Below, in pieces: positions 49,547 through 64,000 of a DNA stretch of 64,000 bases. Within the stretch, counting starts at the first letter, position 1; every line of letters starts with the position of its first letter. The notes beneath the pieces were generated by a model that was not told the origin of the DNA, ran no database searches, and saw only the letters and a program-made list of their open reading frames with translations. Origin of the DNA: Candidatus Desulfofervidus auxilii (GTDB lineage: Bacteria; Desulfobacterota; Desulfofervidia; Desulfofervidales; Desulfofervidaceae); assembly GCA_030262725.1 (NCBI GenBank), contig JAJSZS010000003.1, positions 90,867 to 154,866 on the forward strand, in the 5' to 3' direction. Position numbers and translations under genes: made by a program.

Positions 49547-50641
49547 TTACCCCAAAATGGATTTAACTAAATTATAATGTTTGGCAAAAGGTAACCATAA
49601 ATAATTTAAAAATAATATAAAACCATATCCAGAAAGAAGTTGAAGTAAAAATGCATTCATTATTTTATTTCGATTATAAAAGAAAAATCCAAAATAAGAG
49701 TTTAAAATTGGTAAAAAACCAAAAAATGAAATCCAAGCAAGTTTTGGTTCAAGATGGGCAAAAAATGCACCTCCAACAAATAGCAAAAGAAGACCTAAAA
49801 ATGCATTAAAATAAAGAAGTATTTTTATTGCCCAATCAGTCATTTTTTCCAAAGAAATAGCTAAAAGAAAGCTTATACTTGGTAAAATGACACTAAAAAA
49901 ATATATGGATTGAGAAGTGGAAAAGAAAAAGATGATAAATAATAAAAGCCAAAGCCAAAAGAAAATCTCTGAATTTGTCAATTGTTTATTAATCATTTGT
50001 TTATAACCAATAAACAAAAGATGAGGTAAAAGACCAATCCAAGGGAAGCAAAATAATGGGAGAAAAAGATAGAGATAAAATTTTTCATTGCCTCTTTTAA
50101 ATTCTAATAACTGATAAAAATTTGGAATCTCTCTTGTTTTATAAAATAAAAATCCACACCAAATTAAAATAATAATAAAAAAGAAAAAAAGTCCTTTAAT
50201 GAATTTCATTTCTTTTAAAAATTTAAAGTCCTTTATAAGAATAAAAAGAAAAGCAATTAAAAAGGGCAAAATAAAACCTATTATTCCTTTTGCCATCACT
50301 GCAAAAGCCATGGAGATATAAAAAAGATAAATAAAAATGTCTTTTCTTTTTTCATAACCTAAAATAAAGCTAAAAAGGGAAAGATTTATAAAAAAGGCAA
50401 AGGCAGTTATTGATGGAATCTTACAGACAGTGAGATTAAATAAAAGGGTAGAGGGTAAAATTAAACTAGTAAAAAAACCTATTTTAAAGGAATATAAAAA
50501 AGCACTTGCAAAAAAAACAAAAATAACAATTCCAATACCAAAAATAAAAGAAAAAATGCTTTTTTCTAAGGTAAATAAAAATAAAAGACTACTTAATAAA
50601 AAAATTAAAATTGTTGCTGCCAATTTTTTAAGGAATAGCAT
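49547..50641 (-). CDS. Polytopic membrane protein, N-terminally truncated GT-C (ArnT-like) relative
   Basis: A 364-residue protein that is almost entirely hydrophobic, with about ten membrane segments. ISMAFAVMAKGIIGFILPFLI matches the 'A.L.KGP.G..LP' segment of ArnT/PMT family glycosyltransferases, and FFFSTSQSIYFFSVILPSISFLLA resembles their 'S.S....Y..P..P.LA' segment. The catalytic N-terminal region with the acidic residues of the first periplasmic loop is missing. It may be a truncated, non-catalytic or decaying gene. Confidence 0.6.
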   Translation of the reverse strand: MLFLKKLAATILIFLLSSLLFLFTLEKSIFSFIFGIGIVIFVFFASAFLYSFKIGFFTSLILPSTLLFNLTVCKIPSITAFAFFINLSLFSFILGYEKRKDIFIYLFYISMAFAVMAKGIIGFILPFLIAFLFILIKDFKFLKEMKFIKGLFFFFIIILIWCGFLFYKTREIPNFYQLLEFKRGNEKFYLYLFLPLFCFPWIGLLPHLLFIGYKQMINKQLTNSEIFFWLWLLLFIIFFFSTSQSIYFFSVILPSISFLLAISLEKMTDWAIKILLYFNAFLGLLLLFVGGAFFAHLEPKLAWISFFGFLPILNSYFGFFFYNRNKIMNAFLLQLLSGYGFILFLNYLWLPFAKHYNLVKSILG

Positions 50642-50722
50642 GAGCCATTATTTAACAAAAACAAAAAAGCAAAGCAATGCTTAATGATGGCAAAGCAATA
50701 ATTTTGTGATAAAATCCAAAAA

Positions 50723-51730
50723 ATGGTCAAACAGGAAAAGTTTGAAGCCTTAAAAAAACTGATTCAAAGTGGTAATTTGATAGAAGCAGAACAAGCCATA
50801 TTAGAAGCAATGTTAAAAGAACCAGAAGAGCATCGCTATAAATTTCTTTTGGCGGAATTAGCTTTAAAGAGAAATACAATTGAAAAGGCAGAAAGACTTT
50901 GTAAGGAAGCATTAAGTAAATTGCCTACAGAAAGATATGGTCTTTTTTTAAAAGGAAAAATCCTTTTAGCAAAAGGAACAAAAAAAGCAGCTAAAGAGGC
51001 AATGGAGATATTTGAATATTTATTTAATCAATCAAAAACAAAATCTACCCTTTACTGGCTCCTTCAAGCCTATCTAAAGGCTAAAGAACCTAAAAAAGCT
51101 TGGGAAATTTTGCAAAGTGTCCCCTTTTCTCTTCAAGATACCCCTGCTTTACGTCTCCTTCAGGCAAAAATTCTTATTGCTTTAAAAAGATATAAAGAGG
51201 CATTAAAAGTTTATGAACTTTTATTAAAAGAATCACCTCAAGATATGAAATTAAAAAGAAAAATCCTTTTATTAAAAAAGCAGATAAAAGGAAAAGAAAA
51301 ATGGCAGAAAGAAATGGAAATCATTGCCCGCTTACCATCAGCAGAAAAGGATATTATTTTGCTTTTGGCTCAAGCAGAAACAGCTAAAGAACAGGGAAAA
51401 ATTAAAGAAGCTATATCTTTTTATGAAAAGGTATTAAAGATTGACCCAGAAAATAGGGAAGCAAATCTAAATTTGGGTTTTGTTTTAATAAAATCTGAAG
51501 ATCCAAATTTGATAGATGCTGGAATTGAAAAATTAAAACAATTTTTTTTGGAAGAGCCTTATTTTCACCCAGTTAGAAGTGCCCTTTTTTCTGCCTGTGA
51601 GCGTTATGGAAAGATAGATTATTTATTGCGTATATTAGAAGATGCTTTAAATCTCCATCCTGAAAAAGTAAAAATTTTTGGTTGGATAAAAAGATATCAA
51701 AAAAAGATAAAAAATGCAGCGCATTGCTGA
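50723..51730 (+). CDS. TPR-repeat protein preceding the ATPase-PglZ gene
   Basis: A 335-residue soluble protein built of TPR-like helical pairs ([58 protein letters not shown]). It is cytoplasmic, with no signal peptide. TAAAAT lies 7 bases before the ATG and there is no ribosome site. The 3' end overlaps the giant ATPase gene by 17 bases, indicating coupled expression and a likely physical partner, perhaps an adaptor. Confidence 0.8.
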
Positions 51731-54700
51731 TTTAATCAGTTTGCCAGAGATTAAAACTGTTATTCATTTAAATGATGCATTTTCTCCTTATGCAAGAAAT
51801 TTTTTAAAAGAAATTGTATTTACAAAAGAAGTAAATCAAGCATTTAGGGCTATTTATCACAGTCTTTCTGAAGAAAAAGGAAAAGGTTTTTTTATTGAAG
51901 GTGGTTATGGCAGTGGAAAGTCACATTTCCTTGTAAGTCTTTATCTTTATCTTACTACCCAGAAAATCCCGCCTGTGCCTGGTTTACCTGAAATTAAGGG
52001 CTCTTGGCTAGTAGTACCTATTTCTCTTTTAGACTATAGTAATGAAATTCGCTTGCAAGAAATTGTTTTAGATGCTTTTAATCAAGTTTTAGAAAAAAAA
52101 TTTAAAAAAGGTATCATCCCATCTCAATTCATAGAGCAGTTAAAAAAACTGCTTTCATCCTATAAATCAGAGCTTTCTCAGTTTACAAAAGAACTAGGTA
52201 TATCAGAAGATGATTTTTTTGACTTAAAATATTGGCCGTACTTACGGCAATTTTTTGAAAAATTAAATCTCCCTTATCGTCCAGTTTTAGAAAGACACAG
52301 CATAATGGAAAAACTTCATCAGGTATTAAAAGAAGAAGGTTATAAAGGGGCAATATTGTTAATTGATGAGTTATCTGAATTTCTAAAATCAAAGCCTACA
52401 ATCTCTGACTTTCAAGAAGATATTAGATTTTTGCAATTTTTGGGTGAAACAGCAACAAATATACCCCTTTGGATCATTGCTACATTGCAAGAGCAATTAG
52501 AAACCACAGGTGATGTTCCCCAAGATGCTTATGCCAAAATTAAAGACAGATACCCGATACGTTTTGTGTTTTCTGGCACTCACATAGAGGAGATTGTCAG
52601 TGAACGTTTGGTGAAAAAAAATCCACAAGCCAGAGCATACCTTGAAGAGCTTTTTTTAGAATTTAAAAAGACTTTTAATTATTTACCATTTAATGAGGAG
52701 CAATGGATAAGACTTTATCCAGTGCATCCCTTAACTATCCAATTATTAGATGAATTAAGAGGACTCTTTTCACAACATCGAGGTGCAATTGACTTTGTTT
52801 ATAGCCGTTTAAAAGGAGATAAAAAAAGGAATATTCCTGCACTTTTAGATGCACCTCCTAAAACTTTGCTTTCTCCTACCCTTATCTTTGATCATTTTCT
52901 TGACCGCATCAGAGAAACCTTAGAAACAAATCCTTATTATGAAAAAGTGTATCGGTTTTATGAAAAAATTGTTCCTCGTCTTTTTGATGATATAGAAATG
53001 CAAAAAATAGCTATTTCTCTTATTAAATTATTAATCCTTTTAGCCATTTCACCTATAAAACACAAACCTACAATAAAAGATTTAACTTTGGCACTACTTT
53101 ACCCCTTTACAGATTTAGATCCAACTCTTAATTTTAGATTTATTCACGACATATTGATTCGCCTTCAGCAAGAAGGGGCTTATTTACGTCATGAGACAGG
53201 CAATGAATGGATAGAAGATAGATTTTATTTAGATTTAGAAGAAGACACTCAATTTCTCATTCGTACACGTTTTCATCAGTTAAAACAAAGCATTTTACCA
53301 GGTGATGAACGCATTTATAACTTTGTTTTTGAAAATGCTGTTTCTTCTGTTATTCCTTTTAAGGAATTAAAAGAAATACAAGAAGTAAACATTATTTGGA
53401 AAAATACAAGGCGTAATGGAGTTATTTATTTTTTACCTGCTAAAGAACTTTCTCATTTTTTAAAAAATATAGATAACACAAAAGATTTTCATCTTTTTAT
53501 TTTACGTCTTCCTGTTCCAGAAAACTTTATTTTGCCATCTTTACCTAAAGGAGTCGGGGTTTGGATACCAGAAAAAGCAGATGAAAAAGTGCTTAAAGCT
53601 GCTTTTATTTATGGACAACTAGTAGAGAGATATCAAGCTGAAACAACAAGAGAAAAAAAACTAAGAGAGGCTGCTAAAGCACACTATGAAGAAGCTATAA
53701 AGCAGGCTACACAAGAGATAGTTTGGGCATATAGGAAAGGTACACTTTATTTTTCAGAAAAAGAAAATACCCAAATATTACTTCTTGATGCAAGTCAATG
53801 GTTACGTTTATTGGAAGGCATTTCTGCCTTTATATTAGAAAAACGCTATCCATTGCATCATTTAATTGCACCTCATATGTTACCCCCTCCCCTTTTTCAA
53901 CGTCAGCAATTGGTAGATGCCCTTATTATACCAGGAGAAATTATCCTAAAACGAGAAGATAAACCAATTAAGATATTAATTGAAGGGCTATTAAGACCTC
54001 TTGGCATTTTAAAAAAAATTCCAGGAGGCTATCGGGTAATAATTGAGAGCTCTCGTTCTCCTTTAGTAAAATTTCTTCTTTCTGCCTTTGAAGACAAAAA
54101 CATCCACACAAAAGATGAGATTTTTAATTATTTGCGCTTTAGTGAATTTGGCTTATGTTTAGAACAATGTGAATTACTTTTATTAGCGTTTATCCATAGA
54201 GGTCTTTTAGCTCCATATCGACAAGGTAAATACTTAACACCAGCTAAAATAAATTTAACTACTTTAGACAAAATAGATAAACTGGAAATCACAAAAACCC
54301 TTTCTTCAGAAGATATAAATCTATTAGTCAATTTGCCTTTTTTGCCTGAAAGACTTAAAGGTATAGAACTCACAGTTACCCAACAAATTACACTTTGGGA
54401 TGAGATAAAAAGATTTAAAGAAAATTTATTTCCTCTATTTCAAGGATTAAAAGACTTACTTACAAGACATCATCCAGCCCTTGTTTCTTCAGATTTGACT
54501 TTAGCAAAAGAAACTTTAGAACAGTTTGAAAATATCTTAAATAGCATTAAGGTTTCTCTTCCAGCTACAGAGGGGCTAAAACGATTAGCAAGCACTTTAA
54601 AAGAAATTACATTTATTGATATTCTTTATGCCCGTTTGCAAGCTATGCTTAAGTTTTATGAAAAAAGAGAAAGGATATTTTTTATTTATGATTATCTTCA

Positions 54701-56663
54701 TCATCCAGATTTACAGATTCCATCAAATGAAACCAAATTAAATCAAATTTATGAGGAAACACGTTCTATATTTAAAAAAAATTTGCTTTTTAATCCCTCT
54801 TTGCTTGAAAGTTTAGAAGAAAAATTTAATAGATTTTACGAATACTATGTAAATATTTATGAAGAAAGCCATAATTTGGCATTTTCACAAGAGCGTTTTC
54901 ATCCCTATCTTACTTTGCGTCAGGATGAAACATATAAACTGCTTAAAAACTGGGCAACGCTTCCAGTTTTGCCAGCCAGGGCATATCTTGAAGAAATAGA
55001 AGCTGAGCTAAATCAGGTATTAAAAAGATTTTGTCAATTGGATGTAAAAGAGCAACTGAAACAAAAACCTATTTGTAGTTGTAATTTTAAACTTGGTGAA
55101 GTCATTGAGCTTCCACCTGCCTCTGTATTTTTGTCAAAGATGCAACAAGGCATCAATGCCTGTTTTGAAGCATTAAAAACGCCTCCTTTAAAGTCTCGTC
55201 TTGAATCCTATATGGAAGGGCTTAAAGAAATTGGTAAAAAAGAACAAGCTAAACAAATTAAAGCACTTTTAAGTGGAAAAGGAGAAATAAAGGATTGGTT
55301 AAAGCTTACCTCTGAATTAAAAAAAGCATTATCAGAAGGGATAAAAATCGTAGAAAGAAATCTTGATGTCCTTATTGCCAGACTTAAAGGGCAAAGTCTA
55401 CCAAAGGCAAAGCTTGAAGCCATATTTAAAGATTGGCTTGAAGGAAAAGAAGGAATTTTGCCAGATACTTATATCCGTGTTACTGCTTCTACTACAGGTG
55501 TACCACCTGCATTAGAGCTTGCCTTAAGAGAACGAGAACCTGATTTTTTGCCTTTAGCGCAAAAATGGAAAGAACGATTTTATGCACTTTTAGTCTATAT
55601 TGCCTGGTGTCATTTACATCAATTACCCATTACAGTAGCAGCAGAGCTTTCAGGATTACCTGAAACAGAATGGATAGAAAAACAAACAAGCCTTTTAAAA
55701 TTAGCCATAAAGCTTTTAGAAGAAGAGACATTTATACAATGGGCACAAGGATTAGAAGATGAAGATGCCCTTTGGCAACATTTAAGAATCTATCAACCAA
55801 AACTTTCTTTGGCTTTAGAGCGAGAAAGACTTTTTCCACATCTTAAAAGTCGCATACTTGCTCATTTACTTGAAAGTGGAGAAAAAATTTCTATTTCATC
55901 ATTAGATGAAGAAACAAAAAATCTAGTTAAAGCCTATCAATTCTTAGAAAGTTTAATAAATGAACCTTTAAGTGAAATTCCCACTTCCTCTCAATGGGAA
56001 AAATTTTATCAAAAAAAGATTTTCTACATGGAGTGGCAATTAGGGATTGTTTTTGAAAGTAATTTACCGCAAGAATTGAAAAAGAAAATTTTGCAAAAAA
56101 TTATAAATTTTAGAAAAAAACTAGATACACAGTTTAAAGCATTTTATGAAAGACAAAGTTTTAAAAATCCCTCTTTACCTTCGCAAGGAACAGGTCTTCT
56201 TTTAGATGGATTACGTTATGACATTTATCTTATATTAAAAGAAAAGCTTTTTCCTACTTTAGGCTACAAAGTAAAAGAAGAGAAATTTTACTGGGCAAAA
56301 TCTCCAACAGATACATATACACAATTAACTTCCCTTAATTTGGATAATTTTTTAGAAAATATTTCACCTGGATTACATCTTCTTAAAAAAGGAAACTTAA
56401 AAATATTTAAAGTTGATTTAATTGATACCTACTTTCACCAAACACACCTTTTCCCACATCAAGTAGCAAATGAAATCGTCATACAATTAAAAAATATTTT
56501 AAAACCATTGCTTAAAGGAACAAAAAAAATTTATCTTTTTTCTGACCATGGCTTCCGTTTAAAACTCTCTGCCCTTTCAAAACACACTTACAAAGAGCCC
56601 CTTTATACTCATGGAAATATCTCTTTAGAAGAAGTCCTTGTCCCTTGGGCAGTGCTTGAATGA
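51714..56663 (+). CDS. BrxC/PglY-like ATPase (DUF6079-type) fused to a C-terminal PglZ domain
   Basis: A 1649-residue protein. Walker A is GGYGSGKSH (about 63-71) and Walker B is [11 protein letters not shown] (Asp about 218), in a region resembling the BrxC/PglY ATPases of BREX phage defence. The last 160 residues look like a PglZ alkaline-phosphatase-superfamily domain: [19 protein letters not shown] (metal Asp about 1498), LFSDHGF (about 1611) and [18 protein letters not shown] at the end. BREX keeps these in separate genes; here they are one polypeptide, with no methyltransferase or BrxL nearby. Function could be defence or something else; PglZ domains also occur in signalling proteins. 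Confidence 0.8.
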
Positions 56664-56718
56664 GATTTCTTGACAATGCATATTACCCCGTGATAAAAAG
56701 AAAAAATTGTAGAATAAC
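56664..56718 (+). promoter_or_regulatory. Promoter-like sequence after the fusion gene, related to the cassette module
   Basis: TTTCTTGACAATGCATA is shared with the repeat at 62377-62391. TTGACA (56670-56675) is followed after 16 bases by GATAAA (56692-56697). A further part (TTGTAGAATAA) resembles the mini-ORF region of the copy at 60.3 kb. It would drive the toxin-antitoxin genes downstream. Confidence 0.5.
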
Positions 56719-56754
56719 CTTTCCGAACCAAACAAAAAGTGATAAAAAGGAATA

Positions 56755-56775
56755 AAATCCTGTTTCGCAGGATTT
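56755..56775 (+). repeat. Hairpin before the first toxin-antitoxin operon
   Basis: AAATCCTG (56755-56762), loop TTTCG, then CAGGATTT (56768-56775): a perfect 8-bp stem with no following T-run. It lies just upstream of the antitoxin gene's AAAAGGGG site, so it may be a leader structure rather than a terminator. Confidence 0.5.
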
Positions 56776-56799
56776 AAAACCAAAAAGGGGATTAAAAAT

Positions 56800-57006
56800 A
56801 TGAAAACAAAAAAAATATCTATTTCCATAGACATAATTATTGAGTTGCTGAAGCAATTAAATGAAGAAGCTAAAGAAGAAATTTTTGAAAAAGTATTTTT
56901 AGAAGAAGATACAAATCCTCTAACAGATGAAGAAAAACAAGCAATAAAGATTGCAGAAAAAGAATTAAAAAATAAAGAAACTATCTCATGGCCTTTTGGC
57001 GAATAG
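56800..57006 (+). CDS. Antitoxin of a RelE/ParE-type module
   Basis: A 68-residue acidic protein (MKTKKISISIDIIIELLKQLNEEAKEEIFEKVF ... ENPLTDEEKQA-like middle, ending ISWPFGE). Its 3' end overlaps the toxin gene by 19 bases, the usual antitoxin-first order. The WPFGE end immediately before a RelE-type start is a pattern of this antitoxin type. The toxin is frameshifted, so the antitoxin may now be an orphan. Confidence 0.65.
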   Translation: MKTKKISISIDIIIELLKQLNEEAKEEIFEKVFLEEDTNPLTDEEKQAIKIAEKELKNKETISWPFGE

Positions 57007-57281
57007 AGTTCTCTAAACAAGCCTATAAAAGCTATCAAAGGTTAAATAAAACTTATCAAAAGAAAATAGATAAAATTTTAAACCTTTTGATGACTAAAGA
57101 AAGAGTTGATATAAAATCAGTAGAAGGAGAAAGAGATATTTATAGATTACGAATTGGCAAGTATAGGTGCTGATTAAGGTTAATAAAAAAGAAAGAGTCA
57201 TTTTAGTCGTAAAAATAGGACCTAGAGGTGACATTTACAAAAAATAAAAATCTATCAAATGATGGACAGCTATCAAGATAA
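56988..57281 (+). pseudogene. RelE/ParE-family toxin, frameshifted
   Basis: The start MAFWRIEFSKQAYKSYQRLNKTYQKKIDKILNLL and RDIYRLRIGKYR are typical of RelE/ParE toxins, but the frame ends at a TGA (57171-57173). Adding one base in TATAGGTGC restores VLIKVNKKERVILVVKIGPRGDIYK, the normal ending of the family. So a one-base deletion has broken the gene. The restored frame then runs to a stop at 57279-57281. The partner antitoxin is intact. Confidence 0.78.
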
Positions 57282-57975
57282 GATCTTAGACATACTCATC
57301 AATGCTGAAAAATATCACGACAAATTTTATGAAGTTGAGAAGTTTCACGGCCCAAGCCTTTATTTTCATAGAAGAACACTTGAAATGATTAACTCACCTA
57401 ATTTTGAATTATATTTAGAATTTATATATGCAACTTTAGCCTCATGGGGAATGCATAGAATGGGACAAGGCGGTTCCAAAATGCAAAGTTTTAATATTTT
57501 CAAAAGCAGCGTAATGCAAGTAAAAAAGCAAATTGAAAAGGCAAGAAAAATTGATTATCAAAATATGAAAGAGGTAGATTGGGAGATTCTTAAAAAGATT
57601 TTTTGTAACATTAAAGTTATGGCAAGTAAAACAAGGCTTGTTGGTAACTCAAAAGTTATGGCTCACCTGTGTCCTAATATAGTCCCTCCAATAGACCGTG
57701 AATATACATTAAGATATTTGAAAGGTAATACAAATGTTAAAAATGGAATAAATGTTGAATGGAGTCTAATGAGAGAAATTATAGAAAATTTCTTTATTCC
57801 TGTAGCAAAAAATTCTAATTTTAAAAATAAAGCAAGCAATTGGATAGATAACCAATCAAAATATCCGTGGGATACATCTATTTTTAAGGTTATAGATAAT
57901 TTAATCATAGGAGCAGGTTTGATAGCCAAAGAGAAAAAAACAGAAGTTAATAGTCGTTTAAAAACATCTCGTTAG
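57259..57975 (+). CDS. Unknown 238-residue protein in the accessory region
   Basis: A 238-residue soluble, basic protein I do not recognise. It opens MMDSYQDKILDILINAEKYHDKFYEVEKFHGPSLYFHRRTLEMI, with a conserved-looking centre (LASWGMHRMGQGGSKMQSF and LVGNSKVMAHLCPNIVPPIDREYTLRYL). Its start overlaps the reconstructed tail of the toxin pseudogene. Two adjacent ATGs are possible starts. Its end lies 25 bases before the next antitoxin. Codons are AT-rich like the rest of this section. Confidence 0.6.
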   Translation: MMDSYQDKILDILINAEKYHDKFYEVEKFHGPSLYFHRRTLEMINSPNFELYLEFIYATLASWGMHRMGQGGSKMQSFNIFKSSVMQVKKQIEKARKIDYQNMKEVDWEILKKIFCNIKVMASKTRLVGNSKVMAHLCPNIVPPIDREYTLRYLKGNTNVKNGINVEWSLMREIIENFFIPVAKNSNFKNKASNWIDNQSKYPWDTSIFKVIDNLIIGAGLIAKEKKTEVNSRLKTSR

Positions 57976-58000
57976 AAAAATTCTTGCTTTTGGGCCAGCT

Positions 58001-58216
58001 ATGACAACAATAAGAAAAAAAGTAAAAAGAAGTAAAAAAAGTATGTCTGAAGTTATTAGAGAGAGTTTAAGAAAAGTCCTTTTCCCTAAAAGTGAGTTGC
58101 TTATAAAAAACATGGAGAAAATATTTGGCTTATGGAGTCATAGAAAAGATTTAGATCCAGACCAATATGTGAGAGAAATTAGAAAGGGAAATAGGCTTGA
58201 TAGTTTTGGATACTGA
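58001..58216 (+). CDS. Ribbon-helix-helix-like antitoxin of a VapBC module
   Basis: A 71-residue basic protein with a ribbon-helix-helix end (KSMSEVIRESLRKVLF, about residues 13-28) and a charged tail that may bind the toxin. The usual N-terminal beta strand is short or missing. The 3' end overlaps the PIN-domain gene by 20 bases. Type II antitoxins of this kind autoregulate, although no operator is obvious in the 25-base gap upstream. Confidence 0.6.
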   Translation: MTTIRKKVKRSKKSMSEVIRESLRKVLFPKSELLIKNMEKIFGLWSHRKDLDPDQYVREIRKGNRLDSFGY

Positions 58217-58575
58217 TATTCTTATATGGTTATTGCGAGCTAGAGAGGATATAAAAATTAAGTTCATAAAAGTTACCAAAGAAACAGAAGGTAATCTTTA
58301 TATAACGCCTATTCGAATAGCAGAAATATATGCAGAGTTGAAACCAAAAGAGAAAGAGTTTGTAGAAAAAATTTATTGATAGCTTTTATTTGTTAGAAAT
58401 CAATGCAGAAGTAGGAAAGTTAGCAGGAGAATTTATGAATAAATATAGGAAGTCGCATTCTGTAGAAATTGCCGATGCTTTTATTGCTGCTGCGGTTAAG
58501 ATAAATAGTTGCAAGCTGTGGACATTAAATAAAAAGCACTATCCAATGCTCACCGAAGAAGAATTTTTTGGATAG
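58197..58575 (+). pseudogene. vapC: VapC-like PIN-domain toxin, frameshifted in a poly-A run
   Basis: Frame 1 gives MIVLDTDILIWLLRARED...ITPIRIAEIYAELKPKEKEFVEKIY then TGA. Removing one A from the six-A run near 58370 restores VEKFIDSFYLLEINAEVGKLAGEFMNKYRKSHSVEIADAFIAAAVKINSCKLWTLNKKHYPML, the complete PIN domain with acidic residues in LDTD, AEIY and EIADA. Start is TTG at 58197. Because the indel is in a homopolymer it could be a sequencing error or transcriptional slippage, so it may not be dead. Confidence 0.72.
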
Positions 58576-58579
58576 AAAA

Positions 58580-58706
58580 CTCTATTTTTTTCTGAATATG
58601 ATTTCTGCTTCTGTTCTTTCAAGACTCACTTATAAAGAGTTCTTTTATACTTATGGAAATTTTCTTTAGAGGAAGTTCTTGTTTCTTGGATAGTGCTTGG
58701 GTGAGA
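58580..58706 (+). repeat. Decayed duplicate of the 3' end of the ATPase-PglZ gene
   Basis: This stretch aligns with 56531-56665, the last 135 bases of the fusion gene, including its stop. Shared words include TTTTCTGA..ATG, CTTTCAA.AC.CACTTA, AAAGAG.....TTTATACT.ATGGAAAT, TCTTTAGA.GAAGT and TAGTGCTTG-type matches, at roughly three-quarters identity by eye with a 12-base gap. It is a non-coding remnant. A duplicated gene end around an inserted segment resembles integration or recombination at that end. Confidence 0.72.
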
Positions 58707-58713
58707 GAGATAC

Positions 58714-59003
58714 TTACTTATCAAGTGGGCTTCTTACTCCAAGCATATTTCTCTTTGCACATGGGTATAAATCATAGTTGTTTGAAGATACTTATGCCCA
58801 AGTAATTCTTGAACTAGTAAATGAGTAGCAAAACTGTGGCGAAGAGAGTGAAAGCTCGCGGGCTTGGTTATGCCGGCCATTTTAATCGCTTTATGAAAAG
58901 CTCGTTGTAAAGTTACAATATGAATGTGATGCCGACGAACTACATTTGTACGAGGATCAATAGAAAAAGATTTAGATGGAAAAAGCCAGAACCAGCCCCA
59001 CTG
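58714..59003 (-). pseudogene. intI: Integron integrase (IntI) C-terminal remnant
   Basis: Reverse-strand reading gives [17 protein letters not shown] then [16 protein letters not shown], the IntI-specific stretch, followed by [19 protein letters not shown] and TTMIYTHVQ: the Arg, His and Tyr active-site boxes of a tyrosine recombinase. About nine residues that normally link the Arg and His boxes are missing, and a one-base shift is needed to reach the typical end LGVRSPLDK and its stop. The N-terminal two-thirds of the gene is gone. It lies just left of the cassette array, on the opposite strand, as in normal integrons. Confidence 0.85.
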
Positions 59004-59160
59004 TCAAAAACTTTTTTCCTTTATTTGCCCTGATTTTTTAAAATAAACATCAAATAGCTTAAGCATTGTATAACCAAAAATTTTTTTATAAATGCGCTTG
59101 ATATTATTTTAAATTATCATATGTCAAGCAACTAATAACTAGTAAAATTAAATAATGTAT
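59004..59160. other. Non-coding gap between the intI remnant and first cassette
   Basis: AT-rich sequence with no gene. In a normal integron this is where the attI site and the start of intI would be. I cannot identify a reliable attI here; presumably it was lost with the 5' part of intI. Confidence 0.5.
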
Positions 59161-59257
59161 ATTTTAAACAATTCCCCAGAAACACAACATTTTTCTTGAC
59201 AAGATATGCCATCCATGGTAGAGGGAAAATAATGCAGAGTAATAAAATAAAGTTATG
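59161..59257 (+). repeat. Cassette expression module, copy 1
   Basis: About 97 bases shared with copies at 60203 and 62345. Contents in order: an AAACAATTCC..AGAAA.ACAACATTT upstream part, TTGACA (59196-59201), a 17-base spacer holding the dyad TGCCATCCATGGTA, TAGAGGG (a weak -10-like hexamer and Shine-Dalgarno), and a mini-ORF from ATG at 59232. The mini-ORF stop TGA (59256-59258) overlaps the ATG of the following gene. Confidence 0.8.
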
Positions 59258-59258
59258 A
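59232..59258 (+). CDS. Mini-ORF of module copy 1, coupled to the next gene
   Basis: Eight codons, MQSNKIKL, preceded by GAGGG six bases upstream. Its TGA overlaps the ATG of the membrane-protein gene (ATGA). A near-identical mini-ORF with the same overlap is found in copy 3, so it is conserved by position and start. Likely role: translation coupling rather than a functional peptide. Confidence 0.5.
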   Translation: MQSNKIKL

Positions 59259-60073
59259 GGAAAGACCCAACTATACAAATAAAAGATATGGTTTCGGATG
59301 CTCTAAAAAGATTCATAAAATTAGTATGTCGTCCGAATATACCAATAGGTGATATTGAAGGAACTGATTTGTATTTTGTATATCATGATTTTATCTATTC
59401 TCTTAGTATCATTAGTATACTAGTAGTAACAATAAAAGGATTATTGCCAAATTATTTTGTCATTAATCCTGCTTCTTTAATTAATTGGCCTATTTTTCTT
59501 TTATTATTAGCATTAAATGCATTAATTCCAAGTCTTATTATATTCGCTCTATTGTCAGTACCACTTCACTATAAGACACAAAAAATTCATGTATCTATTT
59601 TTTATCATGCATTAAGAAGTTATTCTGTAGAAATTATTTTAGTGGCCATTTTATTTGTAATTGGCATTAATAGAGTATTTATCAATAGCAGTTTAGTGCA
59701 ACCTATAAATACTTTTGACTTGATATTTGGATTAGTTATTTCTATTACCGTCTTATTTTTTCTTTTTTGGTTAATTGCCTATCCTATATCCAAATATCTC
59801 AAAAACTTTTTTAGTAAAAAGACTGCTTATTTATTAGGACTTAGCTCAACAATATTATGTCTACTTATAAATCCATCACTTTCTTTCAAATATTTTGATA
59901 ACATATTAGACTATAAAGAATTTTGCTATCAGTATATTTCGTATAAATATCAAAAAGAAATAGCAAAAGGTATATATAATAAAGAATGTTTAATCGGAAA
60001 ATGTATTGAATTGAAAAAAATTTTTCATCATAACAAATCGCTTCAGCAAACGGGCAATACTGTCCGCCGCTGA
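59255..60073 (+). CDS. Cassette-encoded polytopic membrane protein, unknown
   Basis: A 272-residue membrane protein with five or six hydrophobic segments (for example FIYSLSIISILVVTIKGLLP, WPIFLLLLALNALIPSLIIFALL, VEIILVAILFVIGI, LIFGLVISITVLFFLFWLIAYP). No family recognised. The last residues (NKSLQQTGNTVRR) are coded by the attC site itself, a common feature of integron cassette genes. It starts by translation coupling to the mini-ORF. It is the first cassette after the intI remnant. Confidence 0.68.
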   Translation: MRKDPTIQIKDMVSDALKRFIKLVCRPNIPIGDIEGTDLYFVYHDFIYSLSIISILVVTIKGLLPNYFVINPASLINWPIFLLLLALNALIPSLIIFALLSVPLHYKTQKIHVSIFYHALRSYSVEIILVAILFVIGINRVFINSSLVQPINTFDLIFGLVISITVLFFLFWLIAYPISKYLKNFFSKKTAYLLGLSSTILCLLINPSLSFKYFDNILDYKEFCYQYISYKYQKEIAKGIYNKECLIGKCIELKKIFHHNKSLQQTGNTVRR

Positions 60074-60088
60074 GTTTTGATGTTATGT
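60028..60088 (+). repeat. attC site 1
   Basis: 61 bases from TCATAAC (R'' side) to GTTATGT (R' side), with the central CGGGCAATACTGTCCGCCGCTGAG part that folds back on the left arm. It overlaps the 3' end of the membrane-protein gene and closes the first cassette. Confidence 0.75.
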
Positions 60089-60117
60089 CTAATATAGTTA
60101 CCGTAAGCATATAACAA

Positions 60118-60160
60118 GGGTCAAAATCAGGTCTTGACAAGCTGTTGAAATATAACATTT
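60118..60160 (+). repeat. Dispersed GGTCAGGTCTTG-type element, copy A
   Basis: A variant of a short element also found at 61839-61890 and 62268-62310. This copy has TCAGGTCTTG followed, after a 9-base insertion, by TTGAAATATAACATTT. It lies between attC 1 and module copy 2. It resembles sequences seen beside REP-associated transposases, an inference from memory. Confidence 0.6.
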
Positions 60161-60202
60161 CTATATGAGTTATGATGTAAAATGCTAGATTTTTAAAAAT
60201 AT

Positions 60203-60307
60203 TTTTTAAACAATTCCTCAAAAATACAACATTTTCTTGACAATGTATACTATCCATGATAGAGGAGGAACAATGTAGAATAATAAAATTCAGTTAGAAG
60301 CTTTATG
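60203..60307 (+). repeat. Cassette expression module, copy 2
   Basis: Same layout as copies 1 and 3: TTGACA at 60237-60242, spacer with the weaker dyad TACTATCCATGATA, a strong GAGGAGG site, and the mini-ORF position. Here the mini-ORF begins ATG TAG, so it ends at once. The later codons still read in frame to a TGA that overlaps an ATG at 60305 (ATGA), the layout of the intact copies. Confidence 0.78.
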
Positions 60308-60315
60308 AAAAAAGA

Positions 60316-61035
60316 ATGATTTTTGACTTAAGTAAACAGCTTGCTAATTGTTGTGAAAAGAAATTAAATTTAAAAAACGCATGCTTAAGTGAAGAATACT
60401 ATTATTTCCATTTACCTTTATGTGTTATTGATGCTATTTTTTCAATAGGTGTTCAATATTCCTCCACTAGAAATACAGTTATAAGATTTTGCAACTATTT
60501 TGGATTAAAACGTACAAGACCAAAGGGAAGTGGATATCCTCCTAAGAGCAAGCAATTGTCTATTCAAGATTTTATAAAGATTTATGAAAAAATTGGTATA
60601 ACCAACATGGCAGAAAAAGTATATTGTAATCGTCAAAGGACTTCAACGAAAAATGGTATTTTAAAATCAGAGGCAGTTTTAAGATTTAGCAAAGTTCTTA
60701 ATAAATACAAGGTTCAATACCTTCAAGATGTTTACAAAATCGTTGAAAATCGAAAGTTTGAACAGGAAATAAAGCAAATTCCTGGTCAAAGAAGTGGAAT
60801 TTCATTGAGATATTTTTATATGCTTGCAGGTAAGGATAATTTTATTAAACCAGATAGGATGATAATTAGGTTTGTAGAATCTTGTCTTAGGCGCCCAGTC
60901 AACGTTGATGAGGTATCATTACTAATTAAAGATACATGTAAAATTTTACAGAAACGCTTTCCAAGTCTTACTCCAAGGTTGCTTGACCATGAAATTTGGA
61001 AATATCAAAGAAAAAGAAGAAATTTAAATCTATAA
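60316..61035 (+). CDS. Cassette-encoded protein of unknown function
   Basis: A 239-residue soluble, basic protein. It opens MIFDLSKQLANCCEKKLNLKNACLSEEYYYFHLPLCVIDAIFSIGVQYSSTRN and has a second half that resembles a helix-hairpin-helix or base-excision-type core (GISLRYFYMLAGKDNFIKPDRMIIRFVE). I do not assign an activity. A four-residue frame (MKKE) from ATG at 60305 ends in TGA overlapping this gene's ATG, giving a second ATGA link after the module. It is the cargo of cassette 2. Confidence 0.65.
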   Translation: MIFDLSKQLANCCEKKLNLKNACLSEEYYYFHLPLCVIDAIFSIGVQYSSTRNTVIRFCNYFGLKRTRPKGSGYPPKSKQLSIQDFIKIYEKIGITNMAEKVYCNRQRTSTKNGILKSEAVLRFSKVLNKYKVQYLQDVYKIVENRKFEQEIKQIPGQRSGISLRYFYMLAGKDNFIKPDRMIIRFVESCLRRPVNVDEVSLLIKDTCKILQKRFPSLTPRLLDHEIWKYQRKRRNLNL

Positions 61036-61091
61036 ATCGTGGAAATGGATGAAGGTTTTGTCTTTTGTCAGCAAAAAGAAAATATAATAAA

Positions 61092-61150
61092 CTCTAACAA
61101 ATCACTCCAATGGACGGCGATTCCGCCGCCGCTGAGTTTAGGCGTTAGAA
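61092..61150 (+). repeat. attC site 2
   Basis: 59 bases from CTCTAAC to GTTAGAA, with the imperfect dyad around GGACGGCGATTCCGCCGCC and the typical CTGAGTTTAGGCGTTA right arm. It is a classic short attC and closes cassette 2. Confidence 0.9.
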
Positions 61151-61190
61151 GGAAAATCTTAAAAAAATTAAAATTCGCAGGAGGTAAGTT

Positions 61191-61349
61191 ATGAGTAAAA
61201 TTTTTGGATTCTCTTTGCTTTTAATTTTATTACTATCTCAATCGGTTCTAGCAGATTCTTACCAAAAAAGCTATGGAGCTCAAAGTCCAAATATAATTGC
61301 AGGTGGAGATGTTAAAATTAAATATAATAATAAACAGAAATTACTTTAA
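61191..61349 (+). CDS. Small secreted or periplasmic peptide in a cassette
   Basis: A 52-residue protein with a clear signal peptide (MSKIFGFSLLLILLLSQSVLA) and a short mature part (DSYQKSYGAQSPNIIAGG and DVKIKYNN). The QSPNI..GG.V.I.Y wording recalls other small integron-encoded exported peptides. It has a strong AGGAGG site (61179-61184). The cassette is only about 240 bases. Function unknown. Confidence 0.7.
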   Translation: MSKIFGFSLLLILLLSQSVLADSYQKSYGAQSPNIIAGGDVKIKYNNKQKLL

Positions 61350-61374
61350 AATTTGAAAAAAAGATTAATGCAAA

Positions 61375-61390
61375 AGTTTAAGTGTTAGGA
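61375..61390 (+). repeat. attC site 3, right half only
   Basis: AGTTTAAGTGTTAGGA matches the right end of attC 2 (AGTTTAGGCGTTAGAA) at most positions. No matching left arm is visible upstream, so it is a remnant that probably no longer recombines. It separates cassettes 3 and 4. Confidence 0.6.
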
Positions 61391-61431
61391 GGAAAAATTT
61401 AAAAAAAATTAAAATTTACGGGAGGTAAACA

Positions 61432-61767
61432 ATGAGTAATTTACAATCCTTTCAACAAGCTTTACAGAACGCTCAAACCTTTATTTTTCAACAAAACAAT
61501 CCACCTTATTTTATATATTTTAATTTTACGAATAAATATTGTGCTATTCACTCTTCTAGTTCACCTAATTTACCTCAAAATCGGCCCGGTCAATGTACGA
61601 AGTTTGAATGTACTGATAATGGTTTTTGGTATGGACCTTTTAATACATATAGTGAAGCTCTAGCTTTTTGTATTATTATGAGTGATTTTCATCATATCGA
61701 TTATGGAGAATATGTATCTGTTTCAAACGGCAGTGGAATAAATTACGTTCCTAAAAGACCAAGATAA
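61432..61767 (+). CDS. Cassette-encoded protein of unknown function
   Basis: A 111-residue soluble protein, aromatic and polar (MSNLQSFQQALQNAQTFIFQQNNPPYFIYFNFTNKYCAIHSS...DNGFWYGPFNTYSEALAF). The GPFNTYSEALAF part suggests a small alpha/beta fold of the kind seen in SPOR-like or WGR-like domains, but this is weak. It has a GGGAGG site (61420-61425) and shares its leader with cassette 3. Confidence 0.65.
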   Translation: MSNLQSFQQALQNAQTFIFQQNNPPYFIYFNFTNKYCAIHSSSSPNLPQNRPGQCTKFECTDNGFWYGPFNTYSEALAFCIIMSDFHHIDYGEYVSVSNGSGINYVPKRPR

Positions 61768-61791
61768 AAAATGGTTAGAAAACTAAGACCT

Positions 61792-61842
61792 TCCTAACAA
61801 ACTCTCCAGCAGATGGGTAATACTGTCCGCCGCTGGATGGGG
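61792..61842 (+). repeat. attC site 4, broken by a dispersed repeat
   Basis: The left arm TCCTAACAAACTCTCCAGC and the centre GGGTAATACTGTCCGCCGCTGGA are present, matching attC 1 well. The right end is missing; the sequence passes straight into the GGGGCAAAATTGGGGTC repeat. The junction at about 61839 looks like an insertion or a recombination point. Confidence 0.78.
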
Positions 61843-61890
61843 CAAAATTGGGGTCAAAAATTGGGGTCAGGTCTTGAAATATAACATTTT
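61839..61890 (+). repeat. Dispersed GGTCAGGTCTTG-type element, copy B
   Basis: Starts at the truncated attC 4 with two tandem AAATTGGGGTC words, then CAGGTCTTGAAATATAACAT. A 32-base stretch ending at 61889 is identical to 62279-62310 (copy C), separated by about 400 bases. The pair brackets the AbrB gene. Confidence 0.8.
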
Positions 61891-61931
61891 TTAAATTGCC
61901 AATTTCTTTCTAAAAAATCATAATTTGCTTC

Positions 61932-61972
61932 TTAAAATAGATTTGGCTAAGCATTAAAAGGATCTATTTTAA
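61932..61972. repeat. Perfect 11-bp inverted repeat upstream of the AbrB gene
   Basis: TTAAAATAGAT (61932-61942) and ATCTATTTTAA (61962-61972) are exact complements with a 19-base loop. It lies between the dispersed element and the AbrB promoter and could be a mobile-element end, a binding site or a leader structure. Confidence 0.6.
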
Positions 61973-61991
61973 TACTTGATTTTCTGCCAGT

Positions 61992-62019
61992 TTGTCTTAC
62001 TATTTTAGTAAGTTAAGAT
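61992..62019 (+). promoter_or_regulatory. Promoter and operator-like dyad for the AbrB gene
   Basis: TTGTCT (61992-61997) and TAAGAT (62014-62019) are 16 bases apart. Within them CTTACT-N5-AGTAAG (61996-62012) is a perfect inverted repeat, a plausible autoregulatory operator for the AbrB-type protein it precedes. Confidence 0.5.
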
Positions 62020-62033
62020 GAAGAGGTAAGTAT

Positions 62034-62339
62034 ATGAAAACAATATTAAGCCAAAAAGGGCAGGTAGTTATTCCAAAGGAGATCAGAGAAAAGCTAAAAC
62101 TTGAAAAAGGCAGTGTATTTGAGATAGAACTTCAAGATAATTTGATAATTCTTAAACCTGTTGGGAAAACTCTGAAAGTTAGGCACTGGAAAGAATTAAG
62201 AGGACTTCTGAAGGGCAAGTATTCAACTCGACAGTTTCTTGAAGAAAGAAGGACAGAGAAAGAGAAAGGGGGTCATCAAAATTGGGGTCAGGTCTTGAAA
62301 TATAACATTTACCTATGTCGTAAACGCGGTGGTTTTTAA
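62034..62339 (+). CDS. AbrB/MazE-family DNA-binding protein with repeat-derived tail
   Basis: A 101-residue protein. Residues 1-47 are a standard SpoVT/AbrB swapped-hairpin domain (ILSQKGQVVIPKEIREKLKLEKGSVFEIEL). A typical antitoxin ending is lost after ERRTEKEKG, and the last 22 or so residues (HQNWGQVLKYNIYLCRKRGGF) are coded by the dispersed repeat. So a repeat has replaced the normal end. No toxin gene follows in the expected place, so any partner was probably lost. Confidence 0.72.
   Translation: MKTILSQKGQVVIPKEIREKLKLEKGSVFEIELQDNLIILKPVGKTLKVRHWKELRGLLKGKYSTRQFLEERRTEKEKGGHQNWGQVLKYNIYLCRKRGGF
62268..62310 (+). repeat. Dispersed GGTCAGGTCTTG-type element, copy C
   Basis: Lies inside the 3' end of the AbrB frame. 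It is identical to copy B across 32 bases from 62279. It precedes module copy 3, as copy A precedes module copy 2, so the two kinds of repeat tend to be neighbours. Confidence 0.8.
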
Positions 62340-62344
62340 GAAGT

Positions 62345-62447
62345 ATTTTTTAAACAATTCCTCAGAAATACAACATTTCTTGACAATGCATACCATCCAT
62401 GGTAGAGGGGAAATAATGCAGAATAATAAAATAAAGTTTAGAAAATG
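62345..62447 (+). repeat. Cassette expression module, copy 3
   Basis: The best-formed copy. TTGACA (62380-62385), a spacer with the perfect 6+2+6 dyad TACCATCCATGGTA (62391-62404), AGAGGGG as ribosome site, and a mini-ORF from ATG at 62416. The mini-ORF TGA (62446-62448) overlaps the ATG of the HEPN gene as ATGA. Confidence 0.82.
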
Positions 62448-62448
62448 A
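62416..62448 (+). CDS. Mini-ORF of module copy 3, coupled to the HEPN gene
   Basis: Ten codons, MQNNKIKFRK, preceded by GAGGGG. Compared with copy 1 the first seven codons differ only at the third (AAT for AGT). Copy 3 then adds bases before the ATGA junction, yet the overlap is kept, which argues that the coupling itself matters. Confidence 0.5.
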   Translation: MQNNKIKFRK

Positions 62449-62834
62449 AAAAAGAAGAACATATAAATTATTGGTTAAAAAGTGCTGAACATGATTTAGA
62501 AGTAGCGGAAACTCTTTTCCAAAATGAAAAATTTGATTGGTGCCTTTTTATTGCTCATTTAGTATTAGAAAAAACTTTAAAAGCCTACTTTGTAAAGCAA
62601 TATAATAAGTTACCTCCTAAAATCCATAATTTAGTAAGATTGGCAGAAATATCTGGTCTTGAACTTACAGAAGAACAAAAATTATTTTTGGATGAAGTAA
62701 ATGATTTCAATCTTGAAATTCGTTATCCTGACTATAAATTTGAATTTTATAAAAAATGCACCAAGGAATTTACTAAAAAATATTTTGAAAAAATTAAGGA
62801 TTTTTACAAATGGTTACTATCCCAGATAAAATAA
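62445..62834 (+). CDS. HEPN-domain protein of a HEPN-MNT pair
   Basis: A 129-residue HEPN domain: INYWLKSAEHDLEVAETLFQNEKFDWCLFIAHLVLEKTLKAYFV, then FNLEIRYPDYKFEFYKKCTKEFTKKYFEKIKDFYKWL. Many HEPN toxins use an R-X4-6-H motif for RNase activity; here the RYPD arginine is not followed by the histidine, so ribonuclease activity is doubtful. It overlaps the MNT gene by 25 bases, the usual arrangement of this toxin-antitoxin-like pair. Confidence 0.82.
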   Translation: MKKEEHINYWLKSAEHDLEVAETLFQNEKFDWCLFIAHLVLEKTLKAYFVKQYNKLPPKIHNLVRLAEISGLELTEEQKLFLDEVNDFNLEIRYPDYKFEFYKKCTKEFTKKYFEKIKDFYKWLLSQIK

Positions 62835-63157
62835 AAGAGATTATTTTCAAATGTATCAATGAATTAGAAAAAAATAATATTCCTATAGATGAAGTGATTT
62901 TATTTGGTAGTTATGCAAAAGGTAATTATACGGAATATAGTGATATAGATCTCCTAATAGTATCACCAATATTTGAAGGAGATAGGATAGAAGATAGAAA
63001 AAAAATTAGAAAATATATTTTAAAAATTAGTTCTTATTTAGAAATTATTCCGTGTTCACGAAAAGAATTTCAAGAGAAAAATCCATTTATTGAAGAAATA
63101 ATAAAAAGTGGTTTAAAAATTACTTTTTCTAACAAATCTCTTCAGCGGACGGGCTAA
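62810..63157 (+). CDS. Minimal nucleotidyltransferase (MNT) of the HEPN-MNT pair
   Basis: A 115-residue pol-beta-fold nucleotidyltransferase with the signature VILFGSYAKGNYTEYSDIDLLIVS, containing GS and two metal-binding Asp residues (D-I-D). In HEPN-MNT pairs this subunit can nucleotidylate the HEPN partner. The final residues (SNKSLQRTG) are read from the attC site, showing the cassette boundary cuts the gene's end. Confidence 0.85.
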   Translation: MVTIPDKIKEIIFKCINELEKNNIPIDEVILFGSYAKGNYTEYSDIDLLIVSPIFEGDRIEDRKKIRKYILKISSYLEIIPCSRKEFQEKNPFIEEIIKSGLKITFSNKSLQRTG

Positions 63158-63185
63158 CCGCCGCCGCTGAGTTTGGGCGTTAGAA
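63127..63185 (+). repeat. attC site 5
   Basis: 59 bases from TTCTAAC to GTTAGAA with central GCGGACGGGCTAACCGCCGC and right arm TGAGTTTGGGCGTTA. A complete, typical attC that closes the HEPN-MNT cassette. Confidence 0.9.
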
Positions 63186-63325
63186 ATGAAAAAATATAAA
63201 TTTACCAAATATTTTGAAAATGAAGCTTTAAGGAAAAGACCCTATATCAAAAGGAATGGTATATAAAAGTAATAGAAAATCCCATAAAAGTTGAAAACTT
63301 TGACAATAGTAAAATTACCGTTTGA
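63186..63325 (+). pseudogene. Small decayed cassette gene (toxin-like, frameshifted)
   Basis: ATG at 63186, immediately after attC 5, gives 26 codons (MKKYKFTKYFENEALRKRPYIKRNGI). Adding one base near AGGAATGG restores EWYIKVIENPIKVENF and ENFDNSKITV before a TGA. This resembles a small family of toxin-like or DUF4258-like proteins that begin YKFTK.FE...LRKRPY. A frameshift and an early stop make it non-functional. Confidence 0.55.
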
Positions 63326-63348
63326 ACAAAAGGGGATAAAAAATTTAA

Positions 63349-63407
63349 TCCTAACAAATCCTTCCACCCAATCCACCATATGGCGGGCAGTAAACTTGGC
63401 GTTGGAA
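63349..63407 (+). repeat. attC site 6
   Basis: 59 bases from TCCTAAC to GTTGGAA, with central CCACCCAATCCACCATATGG and a CAGTAAACTTGGCGTTGG right arm. It is more diverged from the other sites, so it likely came with a cassette of different origin. Confidence 0.75.
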
Positions 63408-63472
63408 GAAAAATAAAAAAATCAGAAAAGTGGCATCTTGGAATTATAAAGTAATAAAACTATTAACCATGG

Positions 63473-63739
63473 ATGAATCCTATTTTGGAATTAAAAGAAG
63501 AAAATGACAAAGAAGAATTAATAGAAATTAAAGAGGAACAACCGTTTAATTATGGACATTATTTTGAATTTTTAGATAGGACATTTATAGCAATGGAATA
63601 TATCTATCAGTTTTTAGAATACCATCCTGTTTTACGAAAGGAAAAGAAATTAAGGAAGATATATCAAAAAGTAGAAAAGCTTGTGGCAGAATTATATCAA
63701 GAGGCTGGAAGATTAGAGTTTGAAAATGAAAAGAAATAA
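63473..63739 (+). CDS. Cassette-encoded small acidic protein, unknown
   Basis: An 88-residue, highly charged protein (MNPILELKEENDKEELIEIKEEQPFNYGHYFEFLDRTFIAMEYIYQFLEYHPVLRKEKK...). Probably helical, with an acidic N-terminus and basic middle. No family recognised. No strong ribosome site is visible; another ATG 4 bases upstream is in a different, short frame. It ends just before attC 7. Confidence 0.6.
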   Translation: MNPILELKEENDKEELIEIKEEQPFNYGHYFEFLDRTFIAMEYIYQFLEYHPVLRKEKKLRKIYQKVEKLVAELYQEAGRLEFENEKK

Positions 63740-63744
63740 GGTTC

Positions 63745-63805
63745 GGTTAACGACTTCTTCTAGAGGACAGGCGTAACCGCCGGCCGCTGAGTTTAGGCAT
63801 TAAAT
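63745..63805 (+). repeat. attC site 7 with altered crossover base
   Basis: 61 bases from GGTTAAC to ATTAAAT, with centre GACAGGCGTAACCGCCGGCCGC and right arm CTGAGTTTAGGC. The R' box reads ATTAAAT where the consensus is GTTRRRY, so the base at the recombination point has changed. Activity may be reduced. Confidence 0.78.
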
Positions 63806-63841
63806 GATATTAAACTAAATTTAAGGAGTCAACTATAAGCA

Positions 63842-64000
63842 ATGAGTTGGATTAAAGAGCATCCTTTTAGTAAGCAAGGCATAGATAACTCTAACAAGTT
63901 TATGAACTACAGCAAAGATGGCTTTTTTAAAGGGCAGACCCTGAGAAAGGCGTCTTTTAAAATAGTTTTTAAAAACACAGTTAAATCTAATTCCTTTATG
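63842..64000 (+). CDS. Cassette-encoded protein, partial at the window edge
   Basis: An open frame from ATG at 63842 runs to the end of the window (53 codons: MSWIKEHPFSKQGIDNSNKF...KGQTLRKASFKIVFKNTVKSNSFM). An AAGGAG site lies about 13 bases upstream. It would be the eighth cassette. The reading is incomplete and no family is recognised. Confidence 0.45.
   Translation, partial: MSWIKEHPFSKQGIDNSNKFMNYSKDGFFKGQTLRKASFKIVFKNTVKSNSFM

Follow-up and report, generated by a model that had tools for sequence, protein, structure and literature searches.

A repeat of about 95 bases occurs three times near the end of a 64,000-nucleotide stretch of DNA from Candidatus Desulfofervidus auxilii (GenBank assembly GCA_030262725.1, contig JAJSZS010000003.1, positions 90,867 to 154,866 of the forward strand; the whole stretch is called the window hereafter). 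In its position, its boundary and, with moderate strength, its fit to the neighboring cassettes, this repeat matches attI, the site at which an integron inserts its gene cassettes. One copy lies beside a broken integrase gene (intI) and two lie inside the cassette array. We hold it to be probable that the repeat is an attI present in these three places, with a predicted cassette promoter and a short leader frame that would likely couple translation to the next gene in copies 1 and 3. An earlier interpretation of the same letters, here called the sequence-only reading, had described a portable, cassette-borne expression unit. Judged by its sequence features, the repeat is best read as a multiplied attI with a predicted promoter and a leader resembling the open reading frame (ORF) known as ORF-11, and not a new kind of regulated cassette module.

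Each copy shares the same build, which consists of TTGACA, a 17-base spacer, TAGAGG, an ATG 7 bases on, and AATAAAA...AGTT. The claim of the sequence-only reading that there are three related copies with TTGACA is borne out, with the hexamer beginning at 59196, 60237 and 62380. In window coordinates, the copies are:

59161 to 59254, plus strand: copy 1, the resident attI; TTGACA 59196-59201, predicted -10 box TAGAGG 59219-59224, crossover GTT 59252-59254
60200 to 60295, plus strand: copy 2, an extra attI head within the array; TTGACA 60237-60242, TAGAGG 60260-60265, ATG TAG at 60273, crossover GTT 60293-60295
62344 to 62438, plus strand: copy 3, an extra attI head within the array; TTGACA 62380-62385, TAGAGG 62403-62408, crossover GTT 62436-62438

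The assembly comprises 2.27 Mb in 72 contigs, and the end of the window is the end of its contig. A 117-base query taken from copy 3 gave 41 matches in this assembly at E <= 10, among which only copies 1 to 3 were strong (E 4e-56 to 6e-30). The fourth-best match, at 56665-56717, was weak (E 0.01, 75% identity); it has TTTCTTGACAATGCAT without the GTT core and sits about 80 bases ahead of a small gene pair at 56800-57173. Rfam gave no match at E <= 1 for positions 50000-64000, and 105 bases of copy 3 found none at E <= 0.01 among plasmid and phage records.

Copies of the repeat were also found in other genomes. With seven copies as its basis, a sequence profile returned 12 places in 8 of 32 genomes at E <= 0.01, and nine of these were accepted: three in the window, two each in the genomes designated G002 and G004, and one each in G001 and G037, the last of which is from another family. 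Seven of the nine had built the profile and match by construction, leaving two that are new (G004 C7 and G002 C99). Among the places not accepted, G012 C30 (E 5e-5) and G015 C11 (E 0.004) resemble ordinary promoters without the core; the third place is G003 C13 (E 0.004). A BLAST-type search of 59 relatives placed the module in four genomes, including its own, and a similar search of 395 genomes of the phylum placed it in three; the latter scored two candidates per genome and missed G001. A pattern scan of genome contigs yielded 26 stretches, with two accepted (L035 and L044) and the other 24 judged from 45 letters each. Six stretches came from the same kind of scan on viral contigs, and nothing alike appeared in the one that was read (L078).

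The key to the identity of the repeat is its right-hand boundary, which the sequence-only reading had not reported. GTT is the integron crossover, and it forms the exact right end of the repeat in all three copies, with differing cassettes beyond it. Compared without gaps, the copies agree at 47, 54 and 51 of the 60 bases through GTT, and at 16, 25 and 25 of the 60 bases that follow. The ten bases ending at GTT are AAATAAAGTT in four of the nine copies (copies 1 and 3, G002 C186 and G001) and lie 1-3 bases off it in the other five. AAATAAAGTT is in turn one base off the published attI1 minimum, which the excerpted text of PMC12901181 gives as AAACAAAGTT.

The second line of evidence is the integrase gene. 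G004, a genome of the same family, encodes an intact integron integrase of 408 amino acids (TIGR02249, 434.9 bits against a cut-off of 265), and the same module lies 160 bp upstream of its start in divergent orientation, on a contig that ends soon after the leader. Two further copies, G004 C7 and G002 C186, each adjoin an intI relic of the G004 type, and a relic is likewise found next to copy 1:

58717 to 59066, minus strand: intI relic; residues 1-20 lie at 59066-59007, and the C-terminal part, at 59003-58717, contains an 8-residue gap and a change of frame

When compared with the G004 integrase by tblastn, the C-terminal part corresponds to residues 305-400 at 71.9% identity over 96 aligned positions (E 6e-41), residues 394-408 are found in another frame (E 0.004), and residues 1-20 match at 50% identity with an E value (0.07) that is weak alone. 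The TIGR02249 match contains one internal TGA. Copy 1 stands 186 bp from the start of this relic, in the place and orientation expected for attI. No intI was seen beside copies 2 and 3, G001 or G002 C99, and the G037 copy begins its contig; the copies without a neighboring intI in G001 and G002 C99 suggest that attI heads may outlast intI. By eye, these last two copies (L032 and L136, respectively) stand ahead of small gene pairs resembling toxin-antitoxin systems. As for the G004-type integrase, an N-terminal part of about 95 residues precedes its integron-integrase match (101-408), and in many other integrases of the phylum the match begins only at about residue 95-100, so there seem to be two length types.

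Fit to the cassettes is the third line of evidence. The outer arm R'' of a cassette's attC is expected to complement the junction at the left end of that cassette. The attC sites used were the three accepted among 11 candidates:

60028 to 60088, plus strand: attC of cassette 1, with outer arms TCATAAC / GTTATGT
61092 to 61150, plus strand: attC of cassette 2
63127 to 63185, plus strand: attC of the copy 3 (HEPN) cassette

The arm of cassette 1 fits the copy 1 core at 7/7, and the G037 cassette fits its own core equally well (7/7). The arm of cassette 2 fits the copy 2 core at 6/7, as opposed to 4/7 for the attC end upstream of copy 2. These fits argue with moderate strength that the cassettes were inserted at the cores and do not carry the module. 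The alternative is that each cassette brings its own promoter, operator and coupling leader, in the way that cmlA and qac cassettes bring promoters. In favor of this, attC sites lie on both sides of copies 2 and 3, and promoters borne by cassettes are well known according to the excerpted texts of PMC8876359 and PMC2945992. However, the module flanks an intact intI in G004, the repeat stops at the crossover, cassette 2 fits the copy 2 core better than the upstream attC end, and the dyad that would be the operator is not conserved. Mainly on the intI neighbors, the GTT boundary and the attC-arm fit, we reject a cassette-borne module as very unlikely, and the sequence-only claim of a portable, regulated unit fails on the intact intI neighbor in G004, the arm fit of cassette 2 and the unconserved dyad.

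Within attI, we predict that TTGACA-17-TAGAGG, left of the crossover, is the cassette promoter, because it stands where the promoter of related attI sites would be. TTGAC is present in all nine copies. Six attI sites of related integrons, chosen as readable among 30 upstream regions (several of which run off their contig or look different), have IntI proteins 58-65% identical to that of G004; TTGAC occurs in five of these sites and a TATAAT-like box at 17 bases in all six. The dyad, which had been put forward as an operator, did not hold up in the same way. Its six arm pairs are complete only in copy 3, with five in copy 1 and G037, four in copy 2, three in G002 C186, G002 C99 and both G004 copies, and two in G001, so that at least five pairs form in three of the nine copies and two to four in the other six. 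The right arm of the dyad also overlaps the predicted -10 region. The dyad, not being conserved, gives no support for an operator-controlled promoter.

Downstream of the predicted promoter, two of the window copies contain a leader mini-ORF:

59232 to 59258, plus strand: copy 1 leader, MQSNKIKL and a stop; it crosses the crossover, and its stop overlaps the ATG of the next gene
62416 to 62448, plus strand: copy 3 leader, MQNNKIKFRK and a stop that overlaps the ATG of the HEPN gene

The leader is open across the crossover in six of the nine copies (1, 3, G002 C186, G037, G004 C24 and, with a GTG start, G004 C7), and its stop comes from the cassette. In the intact G004 integron (C24) the leader reads MQENKIELD and a stop, and in G037 it extends over 27 codons, continuing into the gene in a different frame. 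The ribosome site of the leader has an energy of -6.3 in copy 1, -8.2 in copy 3, -9.1 in the intact G004 integron and -12.0 in G004 C7, where AGGAGG accompanies the GTG. The genes behind copies 1, 2 and 3 have energies of -2.4, -0.9 and -0.4, and two further cassette frames of the array have -11.6 each. Among 12 other genes of the window the values range from -12.1 to 0.6, which indicates that weak sites occur in ordinary genes too. Because the genes behind copies 1 and 3 have hardly any ribosome site of their own, translational coupling from leader to gene is plausible at these two copies.

Copy 2 differs. It has no mini-ORF, since its ATG at 60273 (ribosome-site energy -12.0) is followed at once by TAG; behind it, another frame of four codons (MKKE and a stop, from 60305) lies wholly within the cassette and overlaps the ATG of the gene. 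The leader makes an ATGA or GTGA junction at three of the eight copies with a readable downstream region: copy 1, copy 3 and G002 C186, the last on condition that its predicted 65-amino-acid gene is real. The coupling proposed by the sequence-only reading stays plausible for copies 1 and 3, which have the leader ribosome site, the passage across the crossover and the overlap with the gene start, but not for copy 2. Likewise, its statement that the ATGA junction is kept applies only to copies 1 and 3 of the three in the window, and the comparison it had drawn with the leader ORF of attI1 holds for the same two.

Several observations weigh against an attI with a cassette promoter and a coupling leader. 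Integrase binding and recombination at the module are predictions. The arm of the copy 3 cassette fits its own core at 4/7 as read (7/7 if one T is dropped), and that of the G001 cassette at 5/7; seven-base arms are short, and some fit other cores equally, as does the cassette 2 arm with 6/7 on two attC ends. An intI remnant before copies 2 and 3, sought through flank homology to copy 1, was not supported: the left flank of copy 1 has no detectable relation to that of copy 2 (335 of 500 shuffles score as high) or of copy 3 (285 of 500). The proposed promoter was not listed by a simple sigma-70 scan, whose 27 sites are no excess over the 26.1 expected. The leader is lost in three of the nine copies, namely copy 2 and G001 (ATG TAG) and G002 C99 (ATC); copies without a coupling junction are what the sequence-only reading had named in advance as speaking against its own account. 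The six more distant attI sites, those of the related integrons, have no such leader across their core. Finally, the leader bases are mostly attI core bases, and for this reason selection for translation is not established.

The broken leaders of copy 2, G001 and G002 C99 and the uncrossed core of the six distant sites would also be expected if the mini-ORF were accidental, that is, if its bases were kept for integrase binding, the frame had no role and the genes were translated from their own weak sites or hardly at all. The differences between leaders include amino-acid changes, and two of the 12 reference genes, presumably translated, have ribosome sites as weak as or weaker than -0.9. On the other hand, the intact G004 integron has an open leader whose ribosome site is good, G004 C7 has its GTG with AGGAGG, and the genes behind copies 1 and 3 begin at the leader stop with weak sites of their own. 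We regard an accidental frame as a serious possibility that falls short of being probable.

The leader of class 1 integrons offers the closest comparison. As described in the excerpted text of PMC8876359, ORF-11 and ORF-18 of attI1 are short ORFs with their own ribosome site in attI; they cross the crossover, and the cassette supplies the stop. Translation of ORF-11 is coupled, the next cassette gene is without a ribosome site (here it has hardly any), and the integron promoter lies upstream. The differences are that the G004 integrase scores 341 bits against NF011946, below the cut-off of 435; that the leader sequence is another one; that there are three heads in one array and the integrase is broken here; and that the promoter is only 6-8 nt from the leader ATG (copies 1, 2 and 3, G004 C24 and G037). 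By these sequence features, the leader has an ORF-11-like architecture and the integron is not of class 1.

An attI sequence inside a cassette array is also known from delta-attI cassettes and the attI1-delta-aacA4-attI1 arrangement. In its excerpted form, PMC12901181 counts 96 delta-attI cassettes among 1,685 class 1 integrons and 14 among 57 class 2 integrons, and gives one known case of a complete attI1 downstream of a gene; in the delta-attI type, attI replaces the attC downstream of the gene. This type was ruled out here, as attC is kept (60028-60088, 61092-61150 and 63127-63185) and near-full attI heads stand upstream of genes. Promoters borne by cassettes (cmlA, qac and the Vibrio toxin-antitoxin cassettes) are alike in that promoters within the array make a gene independent of how far it lies from the integron promoter, but theirs lie within the cassette according to the excerpts of PMC8876359 and PMC2945992, whereas the promoter predicted here is in attI, left of the crossover. 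Our searches of the open-licence literature turned up neither a description of an array with several attI-promoter heads ahead of its genes nor one of integrons in Desulfofervidus. The interest of the array is twofold, as it presents another integron lineage with this architecture and carries three heads.

On the reading favored here, RNA polymerase would start at TTGACA-17-TAGAGG, and a ribosome would translate the leader and restart on the overlapping ATG of a gene with hardly any ribosome site of its own. At copy 2 there would be transcription and at most start-stop ribosome loading, because the leader there is ATG TAG. Copies 2 and 3, as extra heads, would place three cassettes in "first position". 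In its fullest form, the proposal would be of an attI with a leader ORF, outside class 1 and in Desulfofervidaceae, in which the promoter stands 6-8 nt from the leader ATG so that transcription begins at the AUG or right beside it. Such a near-leaderless, cassette-terminated leader would load ribosomes onto any captured gene, and the tripled head would give three cassettes first-position expression. We offer this combined proposal tentatively and hold it, as a whole, to be rather doubtful. If true, ORF-11-type coupling in another lineage (uncultured Desulfobacterota-type bacteria) would suggest that attI serves more widely as a ribosome-loading adaptor for genes without signals, and several near-full attI heads per array would offer a way around the fall in expression that comes with greater distance from the integron promoter.

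The two extra heads also raise the matter of their origin. Copies 2 and 3 have left flanks that are related to one another (none of 500 shuffles scores as high), and ends of a mobile element lie nearby:

60118 to 60160, plus strand: RAYT-end-like sequence upstream of copy 2, an imperfect, interrupted relative of GGGGTCAGGTCTTGAAATATAACATTT; repeat family D6, missed by exact-type patterns
from about 61793: truncated attC
61863 to 61889, plus strand: exact RAYT end GGGGTCAGGTCTTGAAATATAACATTT, beyond the truncated attC
62284 to 62310, plus strand: RAYT end upstream of copy 3, a second exact copy of GGGGTCAGGTCTTGAAATATAACATTT

At another locus (L123, 532-1871), ends of this kind stand in inverted orientation on both sides of a Y1_Tnp transposase gene, and we take the element with these ends to be of the RAYT type. 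Copies 2 and 3 are most likely the heads of decayed or duplicated integrons that arrived with RAYT-flanked DNA; we infer from the flanks that the attI-headed pieces either came in or were duplicated with that DNA. A different explanation would assign the repeat to a mobile element of RAYT type (Y1 transposase) by which promoters are spread, its link to intI being secondary. The RAYT-end-like sequence upstream of copies 2 and 3 is consistent with it, as are 12 identical bases of RAYT-end sequence upstream of the G037 copy, where there is no match to the 27-base pattern. Yet the stretches inspected around copy 1 and the G004 copies showed no end of this kind, RAYT ends on contigs C8 and C9 of the same genome have no strong module copy, and G004 retains an intact intI-attI pair. 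We consider a RAYT-borne repeat extremely improbable and retain attI heads that traveled or were duplicated with RAYT-flanked DNA. A 33-base sequence that includes GGGGTCAGGTCTTGAAATATAACATTT occurs in two exact copies (61863-62310), one on either side of a gene for a MazE/AbrB-type antitoxin (62034-62339 or shorter). Several RAYT-type ends are also found among small gene modules in G002 (L125).

The genes behind the three heads are as follows:

59255 to 60073, plus strand: cassette 1 gene, 272 amino acids, probably a membrane protein; no Pfam family
60316 to 61035, plus strand: cassette 2 gene, 239 amino acids; no Pfam or NCBIfam family, 1048 homologues at E <= 0.001
62445 to 62834, plus strand: HEPN-domain gene of the copy 3 cassette (PF05168, E 3.8e-21)
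62810 to 63157: nucleotidyltransferase gene after the HEPN gene (PF01909, E 1.7e-15)

The start of the cassette 1 gene agrees with both of its two homologues, and among 395 genomes of the phylum homologues of this gene were found in its own genome only. The HEPN and nucleotidyltransferase genes (62445-63157) form a toxin-antitoxin-like pair, for which the MntA model scored below its cut-off. Between the second and third heads, a 51-base repeat with a strong ribosome site (GGAGGTAA) occurs at 61148-61198 and 61389-61439, 241 bases apart, each time ahead of a small cassette frame. Upstream of the array, 58001-58575 holds a frame of ribbon-helix-helix type (RHH_1, E 0.0007, just below cut-off) and then two frames that together, we presume, resemble a gene for a PIN-type toxin, interrupted by a change of frame. 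The last 110 bases or so (56541-56663) of a gene for 1649 amino acids (51714-56663) seem by eye to recur in diverged form at about 58590-58703, just before the intI relic and with small genes lying between this recurrence and the 1649-amino-acid gene.

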